Positions 20,715 through 45,573 of a DNA stretch of 45,771 nucleotides are shown here, piece after piece; the first letter of the stretch is position 1; each line of letters opens with the position of its first letter. The stretch comes from Candidatus Firestoneibacteriota bacterium (GTDB taxonomy: Bacteria > Oederibacteriota > D2-FULL-39-29), in the NCBI GenBank assembly GCA_903928075.1, contig CAIYPD010000009.1, forward strand, positions 1-45,771. Direction: 5' to 3'. A program made the position numbers and the translations under genes. The notes under the pieces are model-generated. The model did no database searches. It had not been told where the DNA came from and saw only the letters and a list, made by a program, of their open reading frames with translations.

Positions 20715-20757
20715 CCGATAAAATATTAGTCTATGTTGACTTTATCGGCTATTTCTT
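20713..20757 (+). terminator. Intrinsic terminator of the dnaX operon
   Basis: AGCCGATAAA (20713-20722) and TTTATCGGCT (20741-20750) form a perfect 10-bp stem followed by ATTTCTT. The stem starts in the stop codon of the last gene. Confidence 0.8.
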
Positions 20758-20781
20758 GTATATTAGAACTCATTGTAAATT

Positions 20782-20840
20782 CCTTGGTAGCTCTCCGCCT
20801 CAGGCGGACGACTGTTTTAACAAGCTACCGAGGAATATAA
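20782..20840 (+). repeat. Partial tRNA-Asn-derived repeat with a hairpin in the D-loop position
   Basis: TTCCTTGGTAGCTC matches the tRNA-Asn 5' end, followed by the palindrome TCCGCCTCAGGCGGA in place of the D-loop, then CGACTGTT from the anticodon arm. The copy then breaks off, and AGCTACCGAGGAA, the inverse of the tRNA 5' end, follows. The structure is related to the array at 24.7-25.3 kb and lies directly before the intact gene. Confidence 0.65.
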
Positions 20841-20841
20841 T

Positions 20842-20916
20842 TCCTCGGTAGCTCAATGGTGGAGCATTCGACTGTTAATCGAAGGGTTCCTGGTTCGAGT
20901 CCAGGCCGGGGAGCCA
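20842..20916 (+). tRNA. tRNA-Asn (anticodon GTT)
   Basis: A complete cloverleaf: acceptor TCCTCGG/CCGGGGA, D-stem GCTC/GAGC, anticodon stem TTCGA/TCGAA with loop CTGTTAA (anticodon GTT), variable GGGTT, T-stem CCTGG/CCAGG with loop TTCGAGT, discriminator G and encoded CCA. It is the intact founder of the tRNA-Asn-derived repeats downstream and probably the target of accessory insertions between here and 28.8 kb. Confidence 0.95.
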
Positions 20917-20925
20917 GCACTCATA

Positions 20926-20949
20926 AGCCCGCAGAAATGCGGGCTTTTT
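20926..20949 (+). terminator. Intrinsic terminator of tRNA-Asn
   Basis: AGCCCGCA, loop GAAA, TGCGGGCT and then TTTT: an 8-bp GC-rich stem with a T-tract 10 bp after the tRNA. Confidence 0.9.
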
Positions 20950-21160
20950 ATTTGTTATACAAAACTTATTGTTTTAAAATGATTTTCTATTTTCAAAATA
21001 TTCCATATTGTTTCACTACGTTTCATTCTCATCTGATTTCCTTTCTTATCATACACAAAAAATAATATTTTATTGTTTCAGGATGTTTCAAGATAATTTA
21101 ACTCTATTGCTGCAGAATTTAAATATGTAATCTGTTAATAATAGAAAGGAGGTTGTGACA

Positions 21161-21535
21161 ATGGAAGATTATCATAATATTACACCACAAGAAAGAGTAG
21201 AAAAGATTGCAAGGATTATAACCAAAGGTATTTATGTGATTGCTTTAAAAGAAGGTTGTTTCAATGATGTTATTAAACCCATCGTAAGGAATGAGATACA
21301 AATTAAAAAGGAAAAATCAAAGGAGAGACTTAAAATAGAACATAAAAAAAATATTGGCGATAGAATTCTTACTGCAAATGAGGCTATGGAATTATTGAAA
21401 ATTTCCAGAACTACCTTTTGGAGAATAAGAAAACAATGCGAGATACCTTATAGCATGATTGGTAAAAGACTCATTCGGTTTAGATTGTCGGATATTTTAG
21501 ATCATTTGGAAAAGCAAATATTGAAACATAATTAG
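21161..21535 (+). CDS. Helix-turn-helix (HTH_17/excisionase-like) protein
   Basis: A 124-residue protein from ATG 21161, chosen because AAAGGAGG lies 8 nt upstream. The C-terminal half is a MerR/Xis-type helix-turn-helix: ILTANEAMELLKISRTTFWRIRK, then IPYSMIGKRLIRFRLSDIL. The N-terminal half is helical and unrecognised. Such proteins can be excisionases or small regulators. It is the first gene after tRNA-Asn, which suits a mobile insertion, but no integrase is nearby, so the mobility function may be lost. Confidence 0.65.
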   Translation: MEDYHNITPQERVEKIARIITKGIYVIALKEGCFNDVIKPIVRNEIQIKKEKSKERLKIEHKKNIGDRILTANEAMELLKISRTTFWRIRKQCEIPYSMIGKRLIRFRLSDILDHLEKQILKHN

Positions 21536-21537
21536 CA

Positions 21538-21566
21538 TTGACCTTGCATAGGGTGGGGGGTATACT
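21538..21566 (+). promoter_or_regulatory. Promoter with G-tract operator for the CsoR-like operon
   Basis: TTGACC (21538-21543), a 17-bp spacer and TATACT (21561-21566) form a near-consensus promoter. The spacer contains GGGTGGGGGG abutting TATACTATA, the G-tract/TATA arrangement of CsoR-family operators. A repressor bound here would block RNA polymerase directly, consistent with autoregulation. Confidence 0.65.
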
Positions 21567-21595
21567 ATAAGTAATCTATCCTGGAGGTGAAAACT

Positions 21596-21853
21596 ATGAG
21601 GGGAAGAAGGAAAGAAACACTTATTCATATTAGGCGTATACAAGGACAGATAGATACGCTTGTAAAATATATAGAACAAGGTAAAGATTGTTTGGATATT
21701 GCAATGCTTACGACATCAATTGCAAAATCGTTTGATGCATTGAGATTCAGAACTTTTGAGGGTTTTATTCTAAATCATGTCTTGAAAGGGAAAAAAATCC
21801 CTAAAAAACGGATCAAAACTTTAAATTCCTTAATATCGCTTTACAAAAAATAA
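21596..21853 (+). CDS. CsoR/RcnR/FrmR-family transcriptional repressor
   Basis: An 85-residue all-helical repressor from ATG 21596 (GGAGG 8 nt upstream). The family signature RRIQGQIDTLVKYIEQGKDCLDI is clear. Sensing residues by position are Cys32 and His61, but the second cysteine of copper-sensing CsoR (position 65) is Gly. The sensor site is therefore closer to nickel/cobalt or formaldehyde branches, or altered. The effector cannot be assigned. It precedes a membrane methyltransferase and ChrA on the same strand and probably controls them. Confidence 0.8.
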   Translation: MRGRRKETLIHIRRIQGQIDTLVKYIEQGKDCLDIAMLTTSIAKSFDALRFRTFEGFILNHVLKGKKIPKKRIKTLNSLISLYKK

Positions 21854-21906
21854 GCAAAGCTTTTTCTGATAGGAAGCTATATCATACGGGATATGGAGGG
21901 GTATTT

Positions 21907-23169
21907 ATGCGAAAGGCTGTGTATAATTTAATAAAAGTAATTTCTGCCCGGGCAGGTGTTCTTGTTTTCTTTATAATGGCTTTTGAAGTAATGATAATGG
22001 TCAGTCCTTTTGCTTTCTTCTTTTATTCCGTGTTTAGCCCGTTCTTTAATTTTTTGAATAGGTTTTCCTCAACAGCTTGGCTTACTAACTTTTTCCTGCC
22101 TCATATGATACTTCCGCCGACATTATTTTTAAAATCAGTAAGGATTTTAGGTTCAATATTATTTGTAATAGGAGTAGTTACATTTATTGTCTGTGCTTGC
22201 CAGGTTTATATCGGGAAATTATTTAAATGGGGCATTGCAAACAAAGGACTATATACTTACATTCGGCATCCGCAGTATCTGGCGCTTGGTATCTGGGGTG
22301 CAGGGATGGCGATACTGTGGGCAAGGTTTATTGTTCTTGTCACGCTGGGCATAATGTTTGTTTTATATTACTTTCTTGCTCTGGATGAAGAAAGCAGAAT
22401 GAACAACTTATATAGCAAGTCTTATAAAGAATACATGAAAAAAACCGGAATGTTTTTTCCTAAAGCGATTGAAAATATTATTCACTTAAATGCTCTTCAA
22501 AATACATGGGTTAAAAAACTAGCTGTTTCTTCGGGTCTATTCATTATTGTTCTTTTAGCCGGAGTAATATTAAGGTACATTACTTTAAGTTCTATTGAGT
22601 ATTTTGCGTCTCAAAATGTAACGCTGTTATCAATATTGCCGGAAGATAATAAAATAATTTCCAATGTGATAAAAGTCATTGGACAAAACAAGAATAAAAT
22701 TAATTTTATTTCAAATGATAAGAGTTATTTGGGATATTTAATGCCTGTGGATTACATAATGCAGGGAATGATAGCAGATACGGGCGAAAAATCACAACTG
22801 CACAAACATCATAATACATTTGTTTTGATTTTTGACTGGGTTTTTCATCCGTTCCGGCACTTAAGAAACCCACCCTCTGCTCAAATGGCAAAAATGCATG
22901 GAATTGACCCAATATTTGCGAGAAGGTATCATTGCCCGTTAAATATTGATAATCCGAATATGGCTTGCGATACTTGCCCGTATAGAAGAGTGATATTGGT
23001 GGAAATAGTTAATGGGAATAGTGTCTCGGGATCAGATTCTTTATCTGTTAAATATAAAAGGATCCCTGCAGGATATATTGATATTAACACTACTACGGGA
23101 GAGATAATTAGCGTGAATAGGGTTGAAGAATCTACAGCATGGAAAGATGTCCCAACACCCTCAATTTAA
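21907..23169 (+). CDS. Membrane methyltransferase (isoprenylcysteine/phospholipid type) with an extra C-terminal domain
   Basis: A 420-residue protein. The first 220 residues contain several membrane helices and the ICMT/PEMT signature GLYTYIRHPQYLALGIWGAG, with ALDEESRMNNLYSKSYKEY after it. This is the SAM-binding core of the family, which methylates lipids, isoprenylated cysteines or small substrates. After another helix (about 205-225) comes a roughly 190-residue soluble part rich in His and Cys (HKHHNTFVLIFDWVFHPFRH, CDTCPYRR) that I do not recognise and that could bind metal or heme. GATATGGAGGGG precedes the ATG. It is cotranscribed with the CsoR-like repressor and chrA. Confidence 0.7.
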   Translation: MRKAVYNLIKVISARAGVLVFFIMAFEVMIMVSPFAFFFYSVFSPFFNFLNRFSSTAWLTNFFLPHMILPPTLFLKSVRILGSILFVIGVVTFIVCACQVYIGKLFKWGIANKGLYTYIRHPQYLALGIWGAGMAILWARFIVLVTLGIMFVLYYFLALDEESRMNNLYSKSYKEYMKKTGMFFPKAIENIIHLNALQNTWVKKLAVSSGLFIIVLLAGVILRYITLSSIEYFASQNVTLLSILPEDNKIISNVIKVIGQNKNKINFISNDKSYLGYLMPVDYIMQGMIADTGEKSQLHKHHNTFVLIFDWVFHPFRHLRNPPSAQMAKMHGIDPIFARRYHCPLNIDNPNMACDTCPYRRVILVEIVNGNSVSGSDSLSVKYKRIPAGYIDINTTTGEIISVNRVEESTAWKDVPTPSI

Positions 23170-23182
23170 GGACAGTCCGTAT

Positions 23183-24343
23183 ATGAAGAATGAACAAAAG
23201 CCCTCAATAAATAATTTGTTTTTATCGTTTTTAAAATTAGGAGCAACCGCATTTGGCGGACCTGCTATGGTTTCCTATATCCGCAAGATGGCAGTTGAAC
23301 AAAAAAAGTGGCTTGATGAAGATTCATTTAAGGATGGGGTTGCCCTTTGTCAGACAGTGCCGGGAGCAACGGCTATGCAAACCGCTGCCTATGTCGGGCT
23401 AAGATCACGAGGGATATTTGGTGCTGTAGCAAGTTTTGTCGGATTCGGTCTGCCTGCATTTATTATAATGATGATCCTTTCTGTGGTATACTCGCAAACA
23501 CACAGCCTATCAAAAGTAATTTCAGCATTTAATGGACTTCAAATTATTGTTATAGCTATTGTTGCTAATGCTACTATTTCATTTAGTAAAACTTCTTTGA
23601 AAAACTTGAAAGATGCAATTATATTAATTATTTCGATAGGGATGTTTGCTGTGGGAGCAAGCCCGATTTCCGTTATTTTTATAGCTGCTCTTTCAGGATA
23701 TATTCTCTATAAAAATATGCCTATTCAGAAAAAATCAGTAGAAAATGAAGAAATACTAGAAACTTCTAAAACATTTATATTTCTATTAGTAATTATTGTA
23801 TTTTTGGGTTTGTTGCTTTTTGTTTTCCAGCGGAAATATTTTGATATAGCAATTCTAATGAGTAAAATAGACTTGATGGCTTTTGGCGGTGGCTTTGCTT
23901 CTGTTCCGCTCATGTATCATGAGATTGTTAGTGTTAGGGGATGGATTGATAATGCTGTTTTCTTGGATGGTATTGCCCTCGGTCAGATTACTCCGGGTCC
24001 AATCGTAATTACTGCAACATTTATAGGGTATCTGGTTTATGGACTAATTGGTGGATTAATAACAACCATAGGTGTATTTCTACCTTCTTTTCTTGTTGTC
24101 GTAGGTATAACTCCTTATTTTGACAGAATAAGAAAGTTATCTTTTTTTGATAAAGCTATAAAAGGAATTTTATGCTCTTTTGTTGCACTTTTATTTACAG
24201 TCACTTTAAAATTTGCTTTTAATATGCACTGGGATATTTTGCGCATTTCCCTTGCAATTGCGTCCTTTATAACATTATATCTAAAAGTGGAAATTTATTG
24301 GGTGGTTTTAATTGGTGTTGTTTTTTCTTTAATAGTTCTTTAA
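23183..24343 (+). CDS. chrA: ChrA-family chromate transporter (two-domain form)
   Basis: A polytopic membrane protein of about 386 residues from ATG 23183 (AAGGAC 9 nt upstream); earlier in-frame starts would overlap the preceding gene. It has two homologous ChrA domains. The N-terminal one shows LGATAFGGPAMVSYIRKM and QTVPGATAMQTAAYVG; the C-terminal one shows MAFGGGFASVPLM and QITPGPIVITATFIGY. ChrA proteins export chromate in some bacteria, but many members have unknown substrates. The CsoR-like repressor upstream suggests a metal or stress response. Confidence 0.88.
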   Translation: MKNEQKPSINNLFLSFLKLGATAFGGPAMVSYIRKMAVEQKKWLDEDSFKDGVALCQTVPGATAMQTAAYVGLRSRGIFGAVASFVGFGLPAFIIMMILSVVYSQTHSLSKVISAFNGLQIIVIAIVANATISFSKTSLKNLKDAIILIISIGMFAVGASPISVIFIAALSGYILYKNMPIQKKSVENEEILETSKTFIFLLVIIVFLGLLLFVFQRKYFDIAILMSKIDLMAFGGGFASVPLMYHEIVSVRGWIDNAVFLDGIALGQITPGPIVITATFIGYLVYGLIGGLITTIGVFLPSFLVVVGITPYFDRIRKLSFFDKAIKGILCSFVALLFTVTLKFAFNMHWDILRISLAIASFITLYLKVEIYWVVLIGVVFSLIVL

Positions 24344-24401
24344 GTAACAATCTATTGCAAAACAACCATTAAGCGCCTTGCTTTTCAAGGCTAAATTTCC
24401 A

Positions 24402-24500
24402 ATGTGCATAAAACTCAAAAATGTGCATAAATTTAGAGGTCAAAATCCTAGAAAATGACCTAAAATAACGTTCCAAATGTGCATAAACAATGTGCATAAA
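24402..24500 (+). repeat. Four direct copies of ATGTGCATAAA
   Basis: The 11-mer ATGTGCATAAA occurs at 24402, 24421, 24477 and 24490, all in the same direction, in the otherwise gene-free stretch 24344-24660. Spacings are 19, 56 and 13 bp. The arrangement resembles iterons or a multi-copy operator. No replication gene is adjacent. The rest of this stretch is AT-rich with no other signal I can support. Confidence 0.6.
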
Positions 24501-24662
24501 TTAGATTGCTATACTCTTTGGGATTTTTGTAAGAGTAACATTTTCGCTTTTCTCTTTGTTTTCAATAGGGAATACTAATTTGTATCTTTGAGAGTTTCTT
24601 AAGTTGTTAAGCCCAAAGTAGAAGATTATTGTGCAATAATTTCGTACACGTATATTTTTCGT

Positions 24663-24725: not shown

Positions 24726-24858
24726 TCCTCGGTGGCTCTCCGCCAGAGGCGGACGACTGTGTATCCCAGCGAAGCTGGCCCGCCTCCGGCGGGGAAGGGT
24801 TCCTGGTGAGTTGAGCTGAAAGCGAAATGCGCCTAGGCGTATCCAGGCCGGGGAGCCA
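24726..24858 (+). pseudogene. tRNA-Asn pseudogene with hairpins inserted in three loops
   Basis: Blocks of tRNA-Asn appear in order: TCCTCGGTGGCTC (5' acceptor and D-stem), CGACTGTGTATC (anticodon arm), GAAGGGTTCCTGGT (variable and T-stem), TCCAGGCCGGGGAGCCA (T-stem, acceptor, CCA). Between them are self-complementary inserts: TCCGCCAGAGGCGGA at the D-loop, CCAGCGAAGCTGG plus CCCGCCTCCGGCGGG in the anticodon/variable region, and about 34 nt in the T-loop. The intact gene at 20842 lacks all of these. The acceptor and T stems are still able to pair. It cannot be a normal tRNA. A terminator follows. Confidence 0.75.
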
Positions 24859-24905
24859 AAAAATCAGAACCGCCGGTGCTAACGTCGGCGGTTTTTCTTT
24901 ATGCA
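24858..24905 (+). terminator. Terminator after the tRNA-Asn pseudogene
   Basis: After CCA comes an A-rich spacer, then ACCGCCG and CGGCGGT pairing around GTGCTAA-type loop bases, then TTTTCTTT. It is the second copy of the hairpin at 24680-24713. Confidence 0.7.
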
Positions 24906-24915
24906 GGCATAAAGT

Positions 24916-25315
24916 GCTCGGTAGCTCTCCGCCTCCGGCGGACGACTGTGTATCCCAACCTTTGGTTGGTCCGCCAGGATTTATGGTGGGGAAGGGTTCT
25001 AAGCGGGGAATCAAGAAATAATTAGGCGGTTTTTTCTTTATGCAAGCATAAAGTCCCTCGGTAGCTCTCCGCCTCCGGCGGACGACTGTGTATCCCAACC
25101 TTTGGTTGGTCCGCCAGAATTTATTGCGGGGAAGGGTTCTAAGCGGGGAATCAAGAAATAATTAGGCGGTTTTTTCTTTACGCAGGCATAAGGTCTCCCG
25201 GTAGCTCTCCGCCTCCGGCGGACGACTGTGTATCCCAACCGTTGGTTGGTCCGCCAGGTTTTAAGGCGGAGAAGGGTTCTAAGCCGGGGAATCAATAAGT
25301 CTTTTATGCAAGGGG
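24916..25315 (+). repeat. Three further tandem tRNA-Asn-derived copies (about 140-bp units)
   Basis: Units start at 24916, 25056 and 25196. Each has the tRNA 5' block (CTCGGTAGCTC), the D-loop palindrome TCCGCCTCCGGCGGA, CGACTGTGTATC, a second hairpin CCAACC-GGTTGG followed by CCGCC/GCGG pairing, GAAGGGTTC, then a degenerate 3' end (GCGGGGAATCA in two units, GCCGGGGAATCA in the third). The first two end in a GGCGG-TTTTTT tail; the third has only a short TCTTTTATG tail. The first two are nearly identical, implying recent tandem duplication. No protein-coding signal supports the open reading frames that cross them. Confidence 0.75.
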
Positions 25316-25320
25316 CATAA

Positions 25321-25576
25321 ATGTATACCGTTTATATAATTCAATCTGCAACTACATCTAAAAACTATGTTGGTTATACAAGCGACCTGAAAAAAAGACT
25401 CCTCGGTCATAATGGTGCTTTCGGAATTTCCTCCAAGCACACCAAAAATAAACAGCGGGCCTTGGAAACTTATTTATAGAGAAGAACTTACTTCAAAAAC
25501 TGAGGCCATTATGCGAGAGAAGTTTCTAAAATCCGGTCAAGGCAGAGAGTGGCGAAAGAATAATATACAGATATGA
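25321..25576 (+). pseudogene. Frameshifted GIY-YIG nuclease-domain gene
   Basis: From ATG 25321 the frame reads MYTVYIIQSATTSKNYVGYT and continues to about 25450 with a normal UvrC/YhbQ-like GIY-YIG start (V-Y-I, then Y-V-G-Y-T). It then stops early at 25477. A shift of frame near 25450 restores the family sequence (PWKLIYREEL, AIMREKFLKSGQGREW) to a stop at 25576. One small indel has broken the gene. A related intact gene is at 45286. It starts directly after the tRNA-derived array. Confidence 0.75.
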
Positions 25577-25608
25577 AATGCTTTATTTGCTCTTCTTCCA
25601 AAGAAGAA

Positions 25609-25624
25609 TCCAGGCCGGGGAGCC
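25609..25624 (+). repeat. tRNA-Asn 3' end copy (TCCAGGCCGGGGAGCC)
   Basis: Sixteen bases identical to the T-stem and acceptor end of tRNA-Asn, without the 5' part. It follows the decayed GIY-YIG gene and precedes a hairpin and repeat block. Confidence 0.8.
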
Positions 25625-45293: not shown

Positions 45294-45573
45294 GAAGAAA
45301 AATAAATCTGCCTGGTATATTTATATCGTAAAGTGCGCGGATAAGACCCTGTATACCGGGATAGCCAAAGATGTTCCTAAAAGGATTGAAGCCCATAATA
45401 AGGGGAAGGGTGCAAAATATACCGCTTCACGCGGGCCCGTAAAACTTGTTTATCAGGAAAAAACAAAAAACCGCTCCACCGCCACCAAGAGGGAAATTAA
45501 AATTAAAAAATTAACAAGAACCGAAAAATTAAAACTCATTAAAAGCCGCAGCAAACAGAAAAAGATAAATTAG
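45286..45573 (+). CDS. GIY-YIG nuclease-domain protein (YhbQ/UPF0213-like)
   Basis: A 95-residue protein with the GIY-YIG signature in WYIYIVKCADKTLYTGIAKD, the catalytic Arg in KRIEAHNKGKGAKYT, and the KREIKIKKL segment that supplies the metal-binding Glu. The UPF0213 branch is small like this one and has poorly known roles in DNA or RNA cleavage. The lysine-rich tail suggests nucleic-acid binding. It is intact, unlike the relative at 25321, and is coupled to the GNAT gene by overlap. Confidence 0.88.
   Translation: MLKKKNKSAWYIYIVKCADKTLYTGIAKDVPKRIEAHNKGKGAKYTASRGPVKLVYQEKTKNRSTATKREIKIKKLTRTEKLKLIKSRSKQKKIN

Follow-up and report, generated by a model that had tools for sequence, protein, structure and literature searches.

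Four tandem tRNA-Asn-derived units, each bearing GC-rich hairpins, occupy positions 24726-25294 of the 45,771-nucleotide stretch of DNA analysed here (the window), and they raise the question of how a tRNA gene came to be multiplied and filled with palindromes. Comparison of this locus with its relatives and with similar loci in other phyla suggests, with a probability of about 0.72, that the array represents the amplified and decayed remains of a GIY-YIG tRNA-invader at tRNA-Asn, whose dead half would have collected the palindromes.

Structure of the array and its surroundings

The features that bear on this question are as follows.

20736-20764, + strand: sigma-70-like promoter match (TTGACT-17-TATATT), 5′ of the remnant and tRNA-Asn; consensus match only
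20780-20837, + strand: 5′ tRNA-Asn remnant, TTCCTTGGTAGCTC + TCCGCCTCAGGCGGA + CGACTGTT, followed by the tRNA 5′ end in inverted form (AGCTACCGAGGAAT); fold z = -5.86
20842-20916, + strand: intact tRNA-Asn (GTT); no other full copy was found in the genome
24663-24706, + strand: tRNA 3′ tail (GGAGCCA) followed by a terminator hairpin, a scar at the left edge of the array
24726-24858, + strand: unit 1, derived from tRNA-Asn over its full length; hairpins at the D-arm, in the T-loop and 3′ of the anticodon loop
24866-24895, + strand: copy of the terminator, 3′ of unit 1
24915-25012, + strand: unit 2, T-arm lost
25055-25152, + strand: unit 3, near-identical to unit 2
25196-25294, + strand: unit 4, tRNA-Asn-derived, following unit 3
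25321-25576, + strand: gene for a small GIY-YIG nuclease, interrupted by a frameshift; an intact relative lies in genome G004 (L081:2737-3000)
25606-25624, + strand: 3′ fragment of tRNA-Asn that runs from the T-loop to the acceptor, 3′ of the GIY-YIG gene

With the intact tRNA-Asn as the reference, the acceptor and the start of the D-stem lead each unit, and the D-loop and 3′ D-stem are replaced by the palindrome TCCGCC-N3-GGCGGA, with GACTGTGTATC standing where the intact gene has GACTGTTAATC. The second and third hairpins are insertions placed precisely at the junction of ATC with GAAGGG, ahead of the variable and T-arm region. This comparison confirms a preliminary description of the locus, in which tRNA-Asn blocks were said to keep their order in four units. 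The same description held the hairpins to be perfect and their insertion into the loops to be precise, and both points stand in part. The D-site hairpin is perfect in all four units, as is hairpin 2, whose stems are CCAGC/GCTGG in unit 1 and CCAACC/GGTTGG in units 2-4, but in hairpin 3 pairing is perfect only for units 1 and 4, while units 2 and 3 have an imperfect version. Precise insertion applies to the ATC^GAAGGG site, where no base is lost, but not to the D-site, where the hairpin replaces about 14 tRNA bases. Unit 1 retains the T-arm and acceptor and, as had been noticed, is alone in having a T-loop insert (about 35 bases); most of the T-arm and part of the acceptor are gone from units 2-4. 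The spacing of units 2-4 is 140 bp, and the near-identity of copies 2 and 3 reported earlier amounts to 95% across this repeat. When the units and their relatives are taken together, 97.8% of cells in the three hairpins remain paired and six hairpin pairs show double changes, with none of 500 shuffles as high, so that pairing has been preserved despite variation among the units, as the earlier account implied.

A search of the genome with the array unit gave nothing else above background, and the structure recurs in four relatives, which argues that the array did not arise by chance. DNA-pattern scans of a collection of contigs from genomes and of one of viral contigs for the exact array unit produced no match, and in a scan of the phylum the anticodon-loop/insert/variable-arm pattern was matched only in G002 and G007, which are described below. 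The array abuts the frameshifted GIY-YIG gene, which is followed by the tRNA-Asn 3′ fragment, and the intact tRNA-Asn lies 3.8 kb upstream. Adjoining the intact gene on its upstream side is the 20780-20837 remnant, which carries a palindrome of the array's kind. This piece, the abutting GIY-YIG pseudogene, the 3′ fragment and the link to the intact tRNA-Asn were all absent from the preliminary description. Just 5′ of the array, at 24400-24500, there are also four copies of AATGTGCATAAA, with a weaker fifth match at 25309.

Relatives in Candidatus Firestonebacteria

The same components occur in other arrangements in related genomes of Candidatus Firestonebacteria, the phylum of the window's own genome. 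In G002 the promoter is followed by a 5′ remnant that bears a hairpin, the GIY-YIG gene, the intact tRNA-Asn and two units with hairpins. In G004 a GIY-YIG remnant and tRNA-Asn precede a single unit, another GIY-YIG gene and a 3′ fragment. G007, which belongs to another family, has a tRNA-Asn flanked by remnants on both sides, plus a GIY-YIG gene. The copy number and arrangement of the units are different in every relative; all of these are metagenome assemblies in which arrays may be mis-assembled, and the G002 array includes a run of N. Behind the same promoter region, G003 has a tRNA-Asn with no remnant and nothing inserted, and neither of the two palindrome types was found when G003 was searched for them. 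G003 thus appears to be an empty site, and it provides, with the occupied site in G002, one comparison of the two states.

A GIY-YIG subfamily located beside tRNA genes

The proteins of this subfamily have about 80-110 residues and comprise the catalytic GIY-YIG domain alone. The Pfam GIY-YIG match has E = 4e-17, the invariant residues of the family (Y5, Y16, G18, R27, H31 and E63) are present, and a Pfam search of the subfamily proteins returned GIY-YIG only, with no separate DNA-binding domain as in I-TevI. Conserved catalytic residues and a gene placed next to its presumed target gene, two characteristics of free-standing GIY-YIG homing endonucleases, are both found here. The closest solved structures by sequence profile are UPF0213/SLX1 GIY-YIG proteins (PDB 1ywl, 1zg2 and 7wme). 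SLX1 is a structure-specific nuclease that acts as a DNA-repair subunit in eukaryotes, a role that distinguishes it from the present proteins, and we know of no linkage between SLX1/UPF0213 proteins and tRNA genes.

Loci were sampled from many phyla using a profile of tRNA-linked GIY-YIG proteins (A1) with a motif around FKSGxGR; the contig scan for the subfamily used a two-sequence alignment rather than this profile. The sampling favours strong profile matches and draws mostly on metagenome assemblies, and a held-out set was fetched later under identical rules, from a single phylum and the same ranked list. A tRNA gene is observed within 500 bp of the nuclease gene at 104 of the 161 sampled loci (67/99 in the first set and 37/62 in the held-out set), always on the same strand (104/104), while about a third of the subfamily members lack a neighbouring tRNA. 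Across the nuclease gene from the tRNA, a partial copy of that tRNA is present at 35/104 loci, compared to 3/533 controls with swapped tRNAs (26/67 against 1/368 in the first set, 9/37 against 2/165 in the held-out set); at the strict cut-off used, about two thirds of the tRNA-linked loci have no remnant. The remnants follow a half rule that can be read directly from the loci: a tRNA downstream is accompanied by a 5′-half remnant and a tRNA upstream by a 3′-half remnant (24/26 in the first set and 7/9 in the held-out set), which is the leftover expected of insertion into a tRNA gene with the tRNA rebuilt on one side. Nucleases that are nearest neighbours share the tRNA amino acid in 36/104 cases, against 6.9 after shuffling (maximum 17). 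Strong matches to the subfamily were found in 170/380 sampled genomes of Patescibacteria, and members also occur in other phyla; in the open-licence literature we found no report for Patescibacteria of a link between bacterial tRNA genes and GIY-YIG genes.

Hairpins in the loops of tRNA remnants

Perfect GC-rich hairpins were observed in 27 of the 35 remnants, where about 4.5 would be expected. The first set contributes 18/26, compared to 2.9 expected from shuffles, and the held-out set 9/9, compared to 1.6 expected and 1/9 in the flanking control. A colinear tRNA-insert-tRNA arrangement is readable at 24/104 loci and 1/289 controls, and 12 of the 16 insertions that were judged readable and counted by eye fall within a D-, anticodon or T-loop, where about 29% would be expected to do so (p about 2e-4). 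Insertions into loops in other phyla often remove no tRNA base, and the hairpin sequences differ between phyla. A tight hairpin takes the place of the anticodon arm at L186, L187, L188, L189, L193, L201, L207 and L219. At L290, from Patescibacteria, two tandem tRNA-Gln units have CCCCGCCTTGGCGGGG replacing the anticodon arm, and judging from this layout the locus is an independent analogue of the window array. Possible 2-base target duplications at L232, L288, L261 and L175 are inseparable from the palindrome ends. The suggestion made earlier that palindromic mini-elements end up in tRNA structure gains support from these data, as different hairpins are seen in the remnant loops of other phyla.

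The palindromes are not confined to tRNAs. Five of the eight perfect TCCGCCNNNGGCGGA sites in the window's genome lie within the tRNA-derived sequence described here and three elsewhere; in most of the other genomes searched the copies are mostly elsewhere, and similar palindromes are also present away from tRNAs. Because of this five-to-three division, the proposed preference for tRNA-derived sequence stands as a strong bias toward the array region within a dispersed distribution. The palindromes are best described, from where their copies fall, as a dispersed family with tRNA remnants as a hotspot, biased to tRNAs but not specific for them.

A model for the origin of the array

We propose that a tiny GIY-YIG gene would sit inside a tRNA gene, where a complete tRNA copy on one side would preserve function. 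The nuclease would cut the tRNA gene and repair would copy the element in, in a homing-like manner; we infer this cutting and homing, as well as the manner in which the palindromes move, from the arrangement of the loci. The broken half would remain as a remnant, either a 5′ half upstream or a 3′ half downstream of the nuclease gene, and, freed from function, this dead half would gather short GC-rich dispersed palindromes, for the most part in the D-, anticodon and T-loops. Tandem duplication by unequal crossing-over, possibly aided by nuclease breaks, would then have turned the tRNA copy with its palindromes and terminator into the 140-bp direct repeats of the window, and the nuclease gene would have decayed. 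The combination of nuclease, broken tRNA and loop hairpins across many uncultured phyla looks like an undescribed and widespread parasite of essential tRNA genes, common in Patescibacteria, which would be organized by tRNA identity and would leave its host a complete tRNA copy. The loop hairpins could then serve as a natural and testable record of the points at which tRNA genes open, and they may account for odd tRNA pseudogenes and hairpins in uncultured bacteria.

Alternative explanations

As most of the detected remnants have a palindrome, the hairpins could instead be a working part of the element, which would either destroy the target in the remnant and prevent recutting, or stop the remnant RNA from pairing with the tRNA. 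The presence of hairpins in most detected remnants across phyla, often exactly at the former anticodon arm, and stems that keep their pairing through double changes are consistent with such a role. However, when transcripts spanning the remnant, GIY-YIG gene and tRNA were folded with and without the hairpin, the hairpin did not consistently protect the tRNA cloverleaf (p = 0.33) and lowered the predicted cross-pairing only weakly (p = 0.08), so that RNA insulation by the hairpins was not supported. The presumed nuclease target is also still present in the neighbouring intact tRNA, and palindromes of this kind are found away from tRNAs. We consider a working role unlikely, though it deserves to be weighed.

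It is also conceivable, if rather doubtful, that the SLX1-like nuclease opens the D-, anticodon and T-loops of folded tRNA-gene DNA (a cruciform or single-stranded cloverleaf) and that its own gene and the palindromes insert there, which would make this a structure-targeted system with non-autonomous hairpin elements.

The 3.7-kb stretch between the tRNA-Asn and the array (20917-24662) encodes an excisionase-like HTH_17 protein and has copies of the tRNA 3′ tail at both ends, and it may be a separate tRNA-integrated island; it includes a chromate-transporter-like gene at 23123-24343, assigned by inspection of the sequence. Such a stretch would fit a reading in which the tRNA fragments are attachment-site scars of ordinary tyrosine-integrase islands and the GIY-YIG genes are their cargo. 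This is very improbable, because each GIY-YIG gene is placed directly between a tRNA and its remnant, as a rule tens of bases from them and with no integrase in the gap, the remnants are 5′ halves where the tRNA is downstream, and the nuclease lineage follows the tRNA type.

Two further candidates were rejected: the array units are not functional tRNA genes, as neither ARAGORN nor Rfam found a cloverleaf in them, and no Rfam intron match supports a group I intron in a tRNA in the window. Least probable of all is the folded RNA on a tRNA scaffold that the preliminary description had offered. In its favour are the compensatory changes that keep the stems paired, the terminators on the left of the array and after unit 1, and better folding than shuffles in units 1 and 4 (z -1.96 and -3.23). 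Against it, the + strand has no promoter match within the array or ahead of it, Rfam gives no match, units 2 and 3 show no folding advantage over shuffled sequence (z -0.99 and -0.26), the T-arm and acceptor are lost in units, and copy number and arrangement vary in every relative.

Comparison with known systems

The proposed invader can be compared with SegB of phages T4 and T6, a free-standing GIY-YIG homing endonuclease located at a cluster of tRNA genes on which it acts; in phage T6 its breaks lead to tandem repeats of a tRNA and truncated segB (PMC13096335). Both have a GIY-YIG nuclease beside tRNA genes, and the SegB repeats of a tRNA with a truncated nuclease gene match the layout of the window. 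SegB is, however, phage-borne, the portion of the report available describes no tRNA halves with loop palindromes for it (PMC13096335), and the proteins here have the catalytic domain alone. The present system may be a cellular counterpart of SegB, whose amplification of a tRNA region is a recent finding. The double-hairpin elements DHE/RHE of fungal and sponge mitochondria are short dispersed hairpins, frequently GC-rich and paired in tandem, whose stems are conserved and whose loops vary (PMC2800124). The palindromes here are likewise short, GC-rich and dispersed, with conserved stems and variable loops, but they are bacterial, whereas DHE/RHE are organellar and are tied neither to a nuclease gene nor to halves of tRNAs. 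Insertion sequences with homing endonucleases have been reported in the rRNA genes of CPR bacteria (PMC11270868). Like the proposed element, they are invaders of genes for structural RNAs, carry homing endonucleases and occur in the same radiation of bacteria, but they target rRNA genes, whereas here the targets are tRNA genes and a complete tRNA copy is kept.

Further observations

Several other sequences were recorded during this analysis. A second GIY-YIG gene, of a different subfamily and with no tRNA nearby, lies at the end of the window (45313-45531). In the same genome, L112:1186-1360, between tRNA-Gln and its GIY-YIG gene, contains two copies of a repeat that carries the palindrome ATGGCGCGCCAT. 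At L162, from an Alphaproteobacterium, the insert of a His-tRNA remnant downstream of the GIY-YIG gene (2244-2322) holds GAGCAAAGCGAAATC, which resembles GAGCTGAAAGCGAAATGC in the T-loop insert of unit 1. Copies of TCCGCCTCCGGCGGA in the sister family f2 were considered as tRNA remnants and rejected, as most belong to a different repeat with its own stem. This dispersed repeat (L307-L326) is at least 100 bp long and has the paired palindromes TCCGCCAAAGGCGGA TCCGCCTCCGGCGGA inside an outer stem, the arms of which covary (ATGCCGAA/TTCGGCAT, ATGCCGGA/TCCGGCAT and GTGCCAAA/TTTGGCAC).
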